From positions 2,428,501 to 2,492,500 of the forward strand of contig NC_015914.1 in the NCBI RefSeq assembly GCF_000222485.1: a stretch of DNA of 64,000 bases, read 5' to 3'. The number at the start of each line of letters is the position of its first letter. The stretch's first letter is position 1. The DNA comes from Cyclobacterium marinum DSM 745 (lineage in GTDB: Bacteria > Bacteroidota > Bacteroidia > Cytophagales > Cyclobacteriaceae). The notes below the pieces were generated by a model. The model saw nothing but the letters and a program-made list of their open reading frames with translations, was not told the origin of the DNA and ran no database searches. This document shows positions 2,872 to 57,611 of this stretch, one piece after another. The translations under genes and the position numbers were made by a program.

Positions 2872-4347
2872 ATGAAATCGTCTTTTAGAATTCCTGTGAT
2901 TTTTACTCTTCTCTCAATTTTACTTTATAGTTGCCAAGAAAAAAGGGTAAAAACAGAAGTTATCAATCCTGAAATTCTGGAAAGTGCTTTTAAGCAATAC
3001 AAAGAAAAGTCCATTGATAACAGGCGCTTTGGATACCAGGTTATTGCTCCTCTGATTGCAAAAAGGCATGCATTATTTGAAAATAATGTACTTGGTGAAT
3101 CTGTAGAAGGTAGGCCAATACATTTACTTAGCTATGGAAAAGGTGAGCGTAGAGTCTTGCTATGGTCTCAAATGCATGGCAATGAAAGTACTGCAACCAT
3201 GGCATTGTTCGATCTTTTCAATTTCCTTGAAGGTTCAGCGGAAGATGGGTTTGAATCTATTCGGCAAGCAATTCGAGAAAATTTGTATCTAAGGTTTATT
3301 CCTATGTTGAATCCCGATGGAGCGGAAAAATTCAAAAGAAGAAATGCACAACAAATCGATTTAAATAGAGATGCTGTTCGGCAAAGCAGTCCGGAGGGAA
3401 TCATTTTGAAAAATGTAAGAGATGAATTTAACCCCGAATTTGGCTTTAACTTACACGATCAGAACAGGTATTACAATGTGGAGGGGAGCTCCCTCCCCGC
3501 TACCATCAGTTTTTTAGCACCGGCTTATAATGAAGCAAGAGAAGTGAATGCAGTGAGAAGTAAGGCCATGAAAGTAATCGTAGGAATGAATCACTTGTTA
3601 CAGCAGGTGGTGCCGGGGCAAGTAGGTAAATATAACGACAGTTTTGAACCTAGGGCGTTTGGTGACAATATCCAGAAATGGGGGACAAGTACAATTTTAA
3701 TCGAATCTGGCGCCTATCCCGGGGATCCGGAAAAGCAATACATTCGTCAGTTAAATTTTATGATATTATTGGATGCACTATATGGTATAGCCACAGAGCG
3801 TTACCTTAATTATACAGAGGAGCAGTACATAGCGATACCCGAAAATGATTCAAAATTGATGGATTTGTTAATTAGAAATGTGGAAACCGTTGTCGGTGAT
3901 AAAGCTTATCTTACAGATATAGGCATCAAAAGTAGTGAGGAATTCCTTGATAGTCTTATTTTAATGAAAGGAAATATAGTGGATTGGGGAGATTTATCGG
4001 TTTACCATGGCTATCAAGAAATTGATGCAAATGGTATGGTGTTGGAGAGAGGGAAAATATGGACAGAGACAATACCTCTGGAAAAGCTGACAGAAAAAAG
4101 AGCTCTGGATTTGCTTAGAGAAGGTTATTTAGCGGTCGCTACCGAAAAAACCAACCAAGGGCAAGCCCATCAATTACCCTTAGTGGTATTTACAGAAGGA
4201 AACGAACCCGACGTTAACACAACATTAGACAAATCTCCATTGTTTTTTCTGTCCAAGAAAGGAGAGAAAAAGATGGCGATAGTAAATGGTCATGTTATAA
4301 GGTTGGACAATGGAGAAAACTTCTCATTTTGGCAACTGGTTGAATAA
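2872..4347 (+). CDS. M14-family zinc carboxypeptidase, lipoprotein
   Basis: The N-terminus is a lipoprotein signal ending in LLYSC with Cys at about residue 21, so the enzyme is probably anchored in a membrane facing the periplasm or surface. Zinc ligands of the M14 fold are visible as HGNE (His and Glu), with a third His in NLHDQ; LIESGAYPG carries the likely catalytic Glu. DLNRDAV matches the substrate-binding Asn-Arg of the family. The 491-residue length leaves a C-terminal extension of about 180 residues after the peptidase domain with no recognised motif. It is divergent from the epimerase operon, which fits peptide scavenging, though that link is inferred. Confidence 0.8.
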   Translation: MKSSFRIPVIFTLLSILLYSCQEKRVKTEVINPEILESAFKQYKEKSIDNRRFGYQVIAPLIAKRHALFENNVLGESVEGRPIHLLSYGKGERRVLLWSQMHGNESTATMALFDLFNFLEGSAEDGFESIRQAIRENLYLRFIPMLNPDGAEKFKRRNAQQIDLNRDAVRQSSPEGIILKNVRDEFNPEFGFNLHDQNRYYNVEGSSLPATISFLAPAYNEAREVNAVRSKAMKVIVGMNHLLQQVVPGQVGKYNDSFEPRAFGDNIQKWGTSTILIESGAYPGDPEKQYIRQLNFMILLDALYGIATERYLNYTEEQYIAIPENDSKLMDLLIRNVETVVGDKAYLTDIGIKSSEEFLDSLILMKGNIVDWGDLSVYHGYQEIDANGMVLERGKIWTETIPLEKLTEKRALDLLREGYLAVATEKTNQGQAHQLPLVVFTEGNEPDVNTTLDKSPLFFLSKKGEKKMAIVNGHVIRLDNGENFSFWQLVE

Positions 4348-28764: not shown

Positions 28765-29229
28765 TTACCTAATTAGCTTTAAAAACTGTAAAGCGATGCT
28801 GTTGAAAGCCTCAGGCTTTTCTACGTTAACTACATGACCGCAAGCTGGAACTACTTTAAGCTGTGCAGATTGATGAGTCTTAACCAGCTTGGTGATAGTG
28901 GGCAAAAACATATAATCCTCCTCCCCCATTAGATAAAGGGTGGGGACAGGGGTTTCCTTAATTCTAAATAAACTCAGCAAAGGATTGACTCTGGAAGCAA
29001 GACTAAACCACCTTATAAACTCTTTTTGGTAAAGTTTTTTTGCTTCCTTAACGAATAGGTACCTGGAGGCCTTGTGATTTTTCCTCGGCATAATAATAAA
29101 AGCAAAAAGCTTATAAAGGAGTAGGTACGGGATGACAGATTTTAATAAAATACCCAAGCGCATTAGTACTTGGCCACGTAGATTAAGTTTCATTATGGCT
29201 CCTGCCAGCACCATGCTTGACACCCTTTC
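28765..29229 (-). pseudogene. Alpha/beta hydrolase, 3' part, separated by IS110 copy 1
   Basis: This piece encodes the C-terminal 154 residues: ERVSSMVLAG, the cap region, the acid residue in GEEDYMF and the catalytic His in CGHVVNVEKPEAF. Joined to 30547-30861 it restores one frame of 259 residues, reading ERYP-ERVSSMVLAG across the joint with no base lost or added. A GTG at 29223 could start a fragment, but without the nucleophile it would be inactive. Confidence 0.9.
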
Positions 29230-29232
29230 CTT

Positions 29233-29240
29233 TAGATTTG
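29233..29240 (+). promoter_or_regulatory. -7 half of a promoter completed only in the circular IS form
   Basis: TAGATTTG fits TAnnTTTG. In the excised circle it follows the TTG at 30527-30529 with a 20-nt spacer. In the inserted state neither flank supplies a TTG at that spacing. Copy 2 has the same element at 57618-57625. Confidence 0.65.
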
Positions 29241-29246
29241 ATAAAT

Positions 29247-29485
29247 GTTAATATTCTTAGATTACTGTTATATACATTGAGAGTGCTGGTAGAGACTCAT
29301 AAATTGTTAATAACGGTGGATAACATTAAATTAGGAATAGGAACGGGGTGAACTTACGCCCTTTCTAGGACACTAAGGCCTATGCCCTGTATCAGTCCCC
29401 GTTCCAAGTTCCGGTTGCTTTGAGAACCAGTTAGAATTTTAGGTTAACAGACCTTCTAAAGGTTTTAGTTTCAGCAACCATATTT
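29247..29485 (+). ncRNA. Bridge RNA of IS110 copy 1 (limits approximate)
   Basis: The non-coding left end folds into a 5' hairpin (about 29278-29300) and two larger stem-loops. The first has a 9-bp stem GGAACGGGG/CCCCGTTCC (29340-29348 with 29397-29405); its loop holds ACGCCCTTTC at 29356-29365, like the left half of both targets, and GCCCTG at 29384-29389, complementary to CAGGGC in the right half. The second has the stem GGTTGCT/AGCAACC (29413-29419 with 29473-29479); its loop holds TTAGAAT at 29431-29437, same as the IS right end, and TCTAAAGG at 29455-29462, complementary to CCTTTAGA at the left end. This is the target-loop and donor-loop plan described for IS621. The ends are guesses from the promoter and from the last stem. 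Confidence 0.8.
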
Positions 29486-29506
29486 ATTACACTTAATAGT
29501 AAAGTT

Positions 29507-30502
29507 ATGAAATTTAGAGCATTTATCGGTATTGACGTTAGTAAATCTACCATTGACATCTATTTGAGAAACGCTGGAAGACACGCTGTGTTTGTTAATG
29601 ATTTGAAAGGTTTTGAAGCCATGGTCGAATGGCTTATGGACATTTTGGGACAGGTATGTCCTGAAGAAATGATGTTTGGCATGGAGCACACCGGGCTTTA
29701 TAGCGAGCTTCTGATCTCTTTTCTCGACGATCACAATTTCCCCTTTACAGTACTGCCTGGCTTGGAGGTGAAAAAGTCTATGGGGATCCGAAGAGGTAAA
29801 TCAGACAAAGCTGACTCCAAAGTTATTGCCGAGTATATTTATGAGAAAAGAGAGAAAATCAAATTGTTCCGTAAGCCCTCCCGAAACTTGGAATCGATAA
29901 GAAAGATTGCCTCTTACAGGGAACGTTTGGTAAAGGAAAGAACTGCCTTCAAAACAAGACTAGGAGAACACCAAAAGGTCTATGGTAAGGAGTCTTATGA
30001 GATATATACTCAATCACATAAACAGATCATAGCCTGTCTAGACAACCAGATTAAAGGAATGGAAGCCGAAATGGAACGGCTGATAAAGGATGACCAGGAA
30101 ATGTTAAGACAATACCAGTTGGTCAAATCTGTAAAGGGTATAGGTCCCCAGACGGCCATCATGATGATTGTACTTACTAAAGCGTTTACTGCTTTTCCAG
30201 ATTGGAGAAAGTTTGCCAGTTATGCAGGAATCGCCCCTTTCCCAAACCAGTCGGGGACATATATGGGTAAGACGAGAACCAGTAAACTGGCAAACAAACG
30301 TATAAAAGCACTTCTAACCATGTGTGCGGGGGTGGCCGTACAATACAATCCAGAGATGAGACTTTATTACGAACAACGGGTTAATAAAGGCAAGAATAAA
30401 ATGAGTACAATGAATATTATAAGGAATAAACTAGTATCAAGGATCTTTGCGGTAATAGAAAGAGGTACCCCATATGTCGAAACAATGAAATATGCTGCCT
30501 AG
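29507..30502 (+). CDS. IS110-family transposase (DEDD/serine recombinase)
   Basis: The 331-residue protein has the N-terminal RuvC-like DEDD domain: FIGIDVSKSTIDIYL, FGMEHTGLYSE and SDKADSKVIAEYI supply the acidic residues. After a coiled-coil of about 80 residues, the C-terminal Tnp20 domain reads VKGIGPQTAIMMI and FASYAGIAPFPNQSGT, whose Ser is the expected catalytic nucleophile. It joins donor and target guided by the bridge RNA. It is identical to the copy at 56356-57351. Confidence 0.95.
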   Translation: MKFRAFIGIDVSKSTIDIYLRNAGRHAVFVNDLKGFEAMVEWLMDILGQVCPEEMMFGMEHTGLYSELLISFLDDHNFPFTVLPGLEVKKSMGIRRGKSDKADSKVIAEYIYEKREKIKLFRKPSRNLESIRKIASYRERLVKERTAFKTRLGEHQKVYGKESYEIYTQSHKQIIACLDNQIKGMEAEMERLIKDDQEMLRQYQLVKSVKGIGPQTAIMMIVLTKAFTAFPDWRKFASYAGIAPFPNQSGTYMGKTRTSKLANKRIKALLTMCAGVAVQYNPEMRLYYEQRVNKGKNKMSTMNIIRNKLVSRIFAVIERGTPYVETMKYAA

Positions 30503-30526
30503 AAATTAAAAATTGTACTATTCCAC

Positions 30527-30529
30527 TTG
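30527..30529 (+). promoter_or_regulatory. -33 half (TTG) of the IS circle-junction promoter
   Basis: This TTG near the IS right end lies 17 nt before the border; adding three bases of the left end gives a 20-nt spacer to TAGATTTG, the usual Bacteroidota value. The same element in copy 2 is at 56329-56331 on the minus strand. Confidence 0.6.
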
Positions 30530-30546
30530 CTTTAATCTTAGAATAC

Positions 30547-30861
30547 AGGGTATCTCTCCGTTATTTCCCGAATAATAATTGTACCCAAAGAGATGCCAAT
30601 GAAATGAGATTTTTTTATTTTTAGATGGTTTAAAACCTCCATTACTTCATCTGAAATAACCGGGAAACTGTATTTTTTTAGTTTCTCGTAAACCTTGTCC
30701 TTGGATTTTCCATGCCCCCTCAAGTCCACCAACAGTACATTATACGATTTCTTGAAATCACGAATTTGCTTAAACCATATGGCACTACTACCTCCTGCCC
30801 CATGAATAAAAGTTACCCAAGGTGCCTCTGGTTTTAAGATATAAGTGGTGTAATGCAGCAT
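30547..30861 (-). pseudogene. Alpha/beta hydrolase, 5' part, separated by IS110 copy 1
   Basis: This piece encodes the N-terminal 105 residues, from MLHYTTYILKPEAPW through the oxyanion region FIHGAGGSS to the nucleophile elbow GISLGT and ITERYP. I take ATG 30861; a TTG nine codons upstream is less likely. The frame then runs into the IS and stops after two codons. Without the acid and His it should be inactive. Confidence 0.9.
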
Positions 30862-30986
30862 GAAGGAATATAACACGGAATTACCCAATATGGTTTAATC
30901 CCAGATAAAACGTATAGGGAATTGATTGATTTTCAATCTTTTTCCCGGTGTAGCTATTGATAACCTCTCCCGTATTTACGAGAAGT

Positions 30987-31130
30987 CTTGCAATCGCAAG
31001 AAAATCAGGCAGTTTGGAGATTTTTTAGCATGGCACCGCTATGGTGAAAATGGAAAGCAGCAACCAAGTGGCTGATTTTGAAGCGATTTCTGAACGTAAA
31101 AGATTTTCTATTCCATATTTAGGGTTTAAA
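30987..31130 (+). repeat. Dispersed intergenic repeat, copy A
   Basis: The stretch begins with the near-palindrome CTTGCAATCGCAAG, has TGATTTTGAAGCGATTTC in the middle and ends CATATTTAGGGTTTA. The reverse complement of 62932-63022 shows the same blocks in the same order with a shorter middle. The gap 30862-31238 holds no gene. Confidence 0.6.
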
Positions 31131-55994: not shown

Positions 55995-56311
55995 AAAGTA
56001 AGGCTGTTGTAAAATTTGGGACGGGTAGTAGCTCATTCATTATTCGGCACAAGCTGCAGTAAATAATGTGGCCCTTTTTTTTTGGATAAAATTTATCAAA
56101 TTAAAGTCAGTGGTGTATGTCACCCTTTCAGCGCTTGAAGGGTAGGAATTGGACTTTATCACACAGGGCTAACACCCTGTGCTGATATATATCGCCCTTT
56201 CAGGGCTTAGGAATGGATAATCTGGAAAAATTGGAGCCCTGACTGGGCGGTGTAAAATAGGGATGGTTGTCAGCCCATCCACAATCGGCGAAAACGAAAC
56301 CTCAAAGCCCT
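55995..56311. repeat. Interspersed repeats flanking IS110 copy 2
   Basis: Within 317 bp lie CACCCTTTCAGCGCTT near 56129, the inverted repeat CACAGGG/CCCTGTG around 56162-56181 and CGCCCTTTCAGGGCTT at 56193-56208. A second family reads GTAAAAT, GGGA and CCCATCC, with related copies near 56010, 56250 and, beyond the IS, 57639. Gene-free; the IS sits within this cluster. Confidence 0.65.
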
Positions 56312-57372: not shown

Positions 57373-57611
57373 AAATATGGTTGCTGAAACTAAAACCTTT
57401 AGAAGGTCTGTTAACCTAAAATTCTAACTGGTTCTCAAAGCAACCGGAACTTGGAACGGGGACTGATACAGGGCATAGGCCTTAGTGTCCTAGAAAGGGC
57501 GTAAGTTCACCCCGTTCCTATTCCTAATTTAATGTTATCCACCGTTATTAACAATTTATGAGTCTCTACCAGCACTCTCAATGTATATAACAGTAATCTA
57601 AGAATATTAAC
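57373..57611 (-). ncRNA. Bridge RNA of IS110 copy 2 (limits approximate)
   Basis: Same as in copy 1: left target guide at 57493-57502, right target guide 57469-57474, left donor guide 57421-57427, right donor guide 57396-57403, with the 9-bp stem at 57453-57461 and 57510-57518. No guide change is seen between the copies. Confidence 0.78.

Follow-up and report, generated by a model that had tools for sequence, protein, structure and literature searches.

The window, a stretch of 64,000 nucleotides from the genome of Cyclobacterium marinum DSM 745, carries a 1,317-bp insertion sequence (IS) at 29230-30546 on the plus strand that is, with a probability of roughly nine in ten judging from its sequence, a recently active member of the IS110 family that moves by bridge-RNA-guided recombination. 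We hold it somewhat better than an even bet that the element represents a Bacteroidota lineage with unequal target and donor cores, in which the target loop would itself serve as a bridge, with its left guide reading the first core base of the target and its right guide reading the donor core and the handshake bases. Full pairing would then be reached only after strand exchange, the top-strand cores would be inherited (target core at the left junction, donor core at the right), and the bridge RNA would be made only from the circular form, through a split promoter of the type used in this phylum.

Element, Recombinase, and Genomic Copies

The element is composed of a 277-nt left end, a recombinase gene (29507-30502), and a 44-nt right end, and its right-hand AC (30545-30546) is the element-borne core. 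The genome (6,221,273 bases, one contig) contains six copies, L001 to L006, two of which, copy 1 (L001) and L003, lie in the window (Table 1). L001, L003, L004, and L005 are identical across 1,317 bp, L002 differs from these four by one base change, and L006 is the most diverged copy at 93% alike. The reading frames of all six are intact, and a covariance model built without the element found one bridge RNA in each copy and thus six in the whole genome (E of 0.1 or lower). That the element is a decayed, functionless remnant, or that its resemblances arose by chance, is close to inconceivable given six stop-free frames, copies zero to one base apart, and flanks that follow the guides in 26 relatives; the guide-target shuffles, the site counts, and the near-identical copies already contradict it. 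Joining the flanks of copy 1 restores a single alpha/beta-hydrolase-like frame, and this gene is uninterrupted and without a stop in all 11 further genomes searched within the genus.

The recombinase passes the cut-offs of Pfam families PF01548 (DEDD_Tnp_IS110, 5.5e-25) and PF02371 (Transposase_20, 3.3e-23), and profile matches to recombinases of solved structure include ISCro4 (9t56, 4.3e-24) and IS621 (8wt6, 4.8e-22). Residues D10, E60, D100, D103, and S249 are invariant in four relatives and align to the matching ISCro4 residues; the IS621 catalytic residue numbers used for comparison are those in the available text of PMC11208158. The predicted protein carries the DEDD and catalytic-type serine residues expected of the IS110 family.

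Several repeats accompany the copies. A small repeat of roughly 40 bases at window positions 30958-31000 is weakly matched (86-88%) at four other places in the genome. Two stretches, L072 (G000:C1:1636500-1644000) and L073 (G000:C1:1686500-1698500), lie about 50 kb from each other and have in common many diverged repeat modules with short hairpins, and copies L002 and L005 lie inside these repeat stretches, about 2 kb from each other. In the right flank of L005 and in L072 around 3600-3620, a short segment matches the right end of the element (ATCTTAGAATACAGGG) with no element present, and may be a remnant.

Table 1. Features of the element, its flanks, and its second copy in the window (positions are those of the window)
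Feature	Position	Strand	Basis or remark
Whole IS110-family element, copy 1	29230-30546	+	Borders from six copies and from a sister genome whose orthologous site is uninterrupted
Recombinase gene, 331 aa	29507-30502	+	Pfam PF01548, PF02371; solved relatives ISCro4, IS621
Predicted bridge-RNA core, both loops	29340-29480	+	Model R2: 105.7 bits, E 4.2e-23; covarying helices
Target-binding loop	29340-29405	+	Perfect 9-bp closing stem, 29340-29348 with 29397-29405
Left target guide (LTG), ACGCCCTTTC	29356-29365	+	Last two bases read target core TC; 9/10 with left target
Right target guide (RTG)	29382-29392	+	ATGCCCTG = 29382-29389; subroles by analogy with IS621
Donor-binding loop	29413-29479	+	Perfect 7-bp closing stem, 29413-29419 with 29473-29479
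Left donor guide (LDG), TTAGAAT	29431-29437	+	Equals right end 30538-30544
Right donor guide (RDG)	29455-29463	+	TCTAAAGG (29455-29462) is the reverse complement of 29229-29236; complement including 29463 is ACCTTTAGA
Left-junction core TC, target-derived	29228-29229	+	Uninterrupted sites read CACCCTTTCAGGG
Left target half with core, GACACCCTTTC	29219-29229	+	Last ten bases match LTG 9/10
Right target half, AGGGTAT	30547-30553	+	Complements RTG 29382-29388 with one G-T wobble
TTG, proposed -33 half (right end)	30527-30529	+	20-nt spacing in 26/26
TAGATTTG, proposed -7 half (left end)	29233-29240	+	Bacteroidota consensus
Alpha/beta-hydrolase-like gene cut by copy 1	3' piece 28765-29223; 5' piece 30538-30888	-	Joined-flank frame; whole in 11 congeneric genomes
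Second window copy, L003	56312-57628	-	1,317 bp identical to copy 1; bridge RNA 57378-57518 (-)

Predicted Bridge RNA

An earlier note, made from the sequence of the window, had read a complete bridge RNA from the left end of the element. All four guide segments it described are present where it placed them, with the matches to target and donor that it gave, as are the perfect 9-bp and 7-bp closing stems. The covariance search that it proposed scored the element at 105.7 bits (E 4e-23) with model R2, from which the element had been left out, and the proposed folding separated the two loops: compared with shuffled sequences, the donor loop folds clearly better (z -3.43) and the target loop only mildly better (z -1.76). 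Within the RTG, 29382-29388 faces the right target, GU at 29389-29390 complements the donor core AC, and AU at 29391-29392 complements donor positions 6-7 (AT). The UU core bases of the LDG mismatch the donor core AC. A scan of Rfam gave no bridge-RNA match, its sole match being to a snoRNA model at 26.6 bits, below the gathering score of 50.

Relatives were gathered from 49 loci in one scan of named genomes and from searches with matches in 21 of 59 and 51 of 390 genomes. In an unfitted MAFFT alignment of ten sequences (A2), pairing reaches 99% in helix 1, 90% in helix 2, and 95% in helix 4, and stands at 47% in helix 3. The donor stem is one column out in some sequences of A2, and R2 was therefore built from six cleanly aligning relatives (A3). 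Run on 58 sources, namely the window and 57 of the 170 loci collected, R2 gave 54 matches from 48 sources; the other 10 (L050-L053, L092, L098, L115, L143, L144, and L167) had no match. Three of the 54 matches look spurious, two being on the strand opposite to true ones and one standing at E 0.25. Across the 54 (45 distinct rows, spurious ones included), all 24 base pairs have changed on both sides and 92.9% of cells pair. The fold covariation score of the same alignment is 0.771, against 0.203 when shuffled and at most 0.169 when slid, and these values come from a model-fitted alignment that leans towards its own structure.

A competing view is that the working molecule is a shorter, processed seekRNA of 70-100 nt that holds target guides only, with the donor ends recognised by protein and the donor loop less important. 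According to the available text of PMC11187229, RNAs of that length are recovered together with the purified transposases of several IS1111 elements and with that of ISEc21, which is of the IS110 type. We nevertheless regard this view as rather improbable here: the donor loop is conserved, both stems covary, and the LDG and RDG match the element ends in the window. The two views may also describe one RNA at different stages of processing. For the predicted bridge RNA with both loops, transcription, recombinase binding, and guided recombination are inferred functions.

Guides and Targets

The guides of L001-L005 read ACGCCCTTTC and, as complement, AT-AC-AGGGCAT. With the left and right cores in brackets, the flanks are CACCCTT[TC/AC]AGGG for L001 and L002, CACCCTT[AC/AC]AGGG for L003, CGCCCTT[TC/AC]AGGG for L004, CGCCCTG[TC/AC]AGGG for L005, and TTAGCCCT[TC/AC]GGGG for L006. 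The 13-base target pattern CRCCCTTWCAGGG is exact at the flanks of four of the six copies, and a fifth differs at one base. Uninterrupted, the same pattern occurs only four times in the 6.22-Mb genome, and the reversed-pattern control does not occur, so the match between guides and targets is beyond chance. Copies at targets unrelated to their guides, the outcome that the earlier note had named as speaking against its reading, were not seen, and at five of the six the flanks depart from the pattern by no more than one base. In L006, guides and flanks have changed in parallel at two positions (left T to C, right A to G), and its left guide AAGCCCCTTC fits its flank at only 6/10.

The same relationship extends to relatives, in which elements with other guides have other targets. 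After removal of 21 of the 54 R2 matches with an end or a guide missing, and of seven duplicates, 26 distinct guide pairs remained, whose sources all belong to the host's order or are named Bacteroidota. Among these, the seven LTG bases outside the core match the target at 124 of 182 positions (shuffled mean 0.33) and five RTG bases at 110 of 130 (shuffled mean 0.39); allowing wobble pairs raises these counts to 140/182 and 119/130. For neither guide did any of 20,000 shuffles do as well, and the same holds when shuffling is confined to the AC-donor group (11) or the TC-donor group (15), with the reservation that such shuffles model descent incompletely. Left guides are poor in register (at most 3/7) in 7 of the 26 (L045, L086, L089, L130, L133, L134, and L139), and those of L130 and L133 match 7/7 when shifted by one base. 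Right guides are poor (at most 3/5) in four (L044, L047, L061, and L145). Outside the 26-pair set, the right guides of L077, L078, and L087 match, and the left guide of L077 differs from its flank at the core. Among the Algoriphagus loci (L078-L085, L128, and L151-L154), several contigs end in or beside IS copies in a same-target repeat, as if the assembly had broken there.

Target shape was also considered. Counts do not support the idea that the target forms an abundant REP-like family in this genome: three matches to a hairpin-plus-linker pattern were found, and with up to two mismatches there were 304 matches against 224 for the reversed control. Some copies nevertheless lie inside repeats. 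Window positions 56111-56208, about 100-200 bp from the second copy, contain two 26-nt direct repeats with intact or near-intact target sites (CACCCTTTCAGCG and CGCCCTTTCAGGG), and CGCCCTTTCAGGG is one of the four perfect uninterrupted sites of the genome. A stem of at least 4 bp can form in 15 of the 26 targets, compared with 7.7 for re-paired halves, and only 3 of 3,000 shuffles reach as high. This excess would be expected if the recombinase recognised a small hairpin or palindrome in the target DNA and the match to the RNA were secondary. Such recognition is, in our estimate, very unlikely, as 11 of the 26 targets lack a stem of this kind, and the targets share no sequence between elements and yet follow the guides base by base.

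Unequal Cores

Uninterrupted sites reveal which side contributed each core. The site of L001 in the nearest genome (98% identical) reads GACACCCTTTCAGGGTATC; L002 sits in a repeat whose other copies include two with CACCCTTTCAGGG and one with CACCCTTTTAGGG; and for a related element in genome G304, two uninterrupted places read CCCAGCCACGGCTGGCAGG, with a third carrying one extra C. From these three sites it follows that the left junction holds the target core (TC, TC, and GC) and that the AC at the right is element-borne. No target duplication beyond the core is seen at the sites of L001 and L002. L003 is uninformative on core inheritance because AC stands at both of its junctions, and a repeat that resembles the L005 site has, in an unregistered reading, no AGGG and is therefore not proof of that site. 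If cleavage has the two-base stagger of IS621, all five informative copies would have retained top-strand cores at the left and right junctions alike, a small sample from which copies resolved otherwise may have been lost.

Across the 26 pairs, the second core base at the left junction is C in 25, and the first core base differs between the left (target) and right (donor) junctions in 23. The two target guides divide along this difference. The first core base of the LTG is that of the target in 19/26 and that of the donor in 1/26, and the first core base of the RTG is that of the donor in 26/26 and that of the target in 3/26. The two handshake bases of the RTG equal donor positions 6-7 in 49 of 52 cases. 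For the RDG, the core and handshake bases agree with the target in 5/26 and with the donor in 12/26, a level that shuffles also reach; a few rows are out of register.

The motif by which right ends were located restricted the first core base to A or T and required C at the next, so 15 of the set-aside rows were also inspected by eye. A right-end candidate is present in 14 of the 15, and 12 agree, including a third state in L140 (GC with GC). L142 and L155, two rows of one element, disagree, with G in the donor and A in the guide. This G123 relative has three copies (L142, L155, and L156) whose ends depart from the common motif, with left end ATCTTTATATTT, donor core GC, and an RTG core one base off. 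A tree of 34 recombinases shows three changes of the donor base, with only one independent pair bearing on the A state. Covariation between the RTG and the donor core is thin, resting on about three changes on the tree, and the argument from the core accordingly relies on the direct match of the RTG to the donor and its mismatch to the varying target.

Unequal cores could in principle be an artefact of misplaced borders around cores that are truly identical. The borders do rest on conserved end motifs, and only the C is common to both junctions (25/26). Against an artefact, which we consider unlikely, the uninterrupted sites of L001, L002, and the G304 element read TC, TC, and GC with AC found only on the element side, and no one-base shift makes the dinucleotides equal.

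According to the available text of PMC11208158, cleavage of the IS621 top strands falls on the 3' side of the core, and once the strands have been exchanged the RTG pairs with the donor core that has come in. In that of PMC11208160, the core is counted in all four pairings, and both cores are CT. Because CT is present in both DNAs, IS621 cannot separate the guide readings at the core; here target and donor cores are naturally unequal, and the sequence alone can separate the roles of the guides. The pattern of core reading described above fits the post-exchange state and agrees with the handshake model. Taken together, the matches of guides to target and donor, the covariation, and the uninterrupted sites support the bridge-RNA reading of the left end that the earlier note proposed, and they refine its IS621-like model: target and donor lack a fully shared core dinucleotide, and the right target guide reads the donor core. 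A literature search at the level of titles and abstracts, covering few subscription papers and preprints, found no report of unequal cores in IS110 elements.

These results suggest that equal first core bases are perhaps dispensable for these recombinases and that the RTG should be written to fit the donor. With two versions of the guides in a single genome, uninterrupted sites that are known, and a proposed phylum-type junction promoter, the copies offer a test system in the Bacteroidota.

Proposed Junction Promoter and Mechanism

When the right end is joined to the left, a TTG lies exactly 20 nt ahead of a TAG in 26 of 26 elements. The TAG belonged to the left-end search motif and the TTG did not; the TTG columns are invariant amid variable neighbours, and positions +8 to +11 mostly read TTTG or TTTA. 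Among the 26 integrated left flanks, a TTG at 19-21 nt occurs just once. In the available text of PMC2483708 and PMC9723704, the Bacteroidota promoter consensus consists of a -7 element, TAnnTTTG, and a -33 element, TTTG, and promoters at joined ends are described for IS621 and others in the sources available. We infer that the joined ends form a Bacteroidota-type promoter. Such a junction promoter in IS110 elements was not found in a title- and abstract-level literature search that covered few subscription papers and preprints.

A plausible cycle begins with the element leaving as a circle whose joined ends would create this promoter, from which the bridge RNA would be transcribed. The target loop would bind the left target together with the target core through the LTG, and the right target through the RTG; the donor loop would pair with the joined ends of the element itself. 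By analogy with the IS621 structures, and consistent with the pattern seen here, the recombinase would cut the top strands on the 3' side of the two-base core and exchange them, leaving the RTG to pair with the AC core brought in by the donor and with donor bases 6-7 (AT). The predicted outcome is a target core kept at the left junction and a donor core at the right.

Comparison with Known IS110-Family Systems

The longer non-coding region lies upstream of the gene (277 nt, against 44 nt downstream), a trait of the IS110 group; the long downstream region of the IS1111 group, for which subterminal inverted repeats of 11-13 bp are a further trait, is absent, with only 44 nt there. Also absent is the trait of the IS621 subtype, a CT core common to target and donor and read in all four pairings. 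The element is not filed under that subtype because the second core base is C in both DNAs and the first differs in 23/26.

ISCro4 (PDB 9t56; reviewed in PMC13199778, in its available text) is the best match among solved structures (E 4.3e-24, residues 6-323), a comparison of the recombinase alone. As far as the available texts of PMC11208160 and PMC11208158 describe IS621, the element resembles it in its DEDD/serine recombinase, in a predicted left-end bridge RNA with target and donor loops, and in the same order of the four guides. It further resembles IS621, as available sources present it, in the handshake bases of the RTG, in the joined-end promoter proposed here, and in palindromic targets (REP in IS621). 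Unlike IS621, in which the available sources give CT as both the target and donor core, the element and its relatives have C as the second base and unequal first bases in 23/26; and whereas the IS621 junction promoter is described there as sigma-70, the one proposed here is of the Bacteroidota type. Like IS1111/IS110 seekRNA elements such as ISEc11 and ISEc21 (PMC11187229, available text), it has a predicted non-coding RNA that matches both target strands, and as in the IS110-type ISEc21 that RNA lies upstream of the gene. In IS1111-type elements, by contrast, the same text places the long non-coding region downstream and gives the guides in reversed order.
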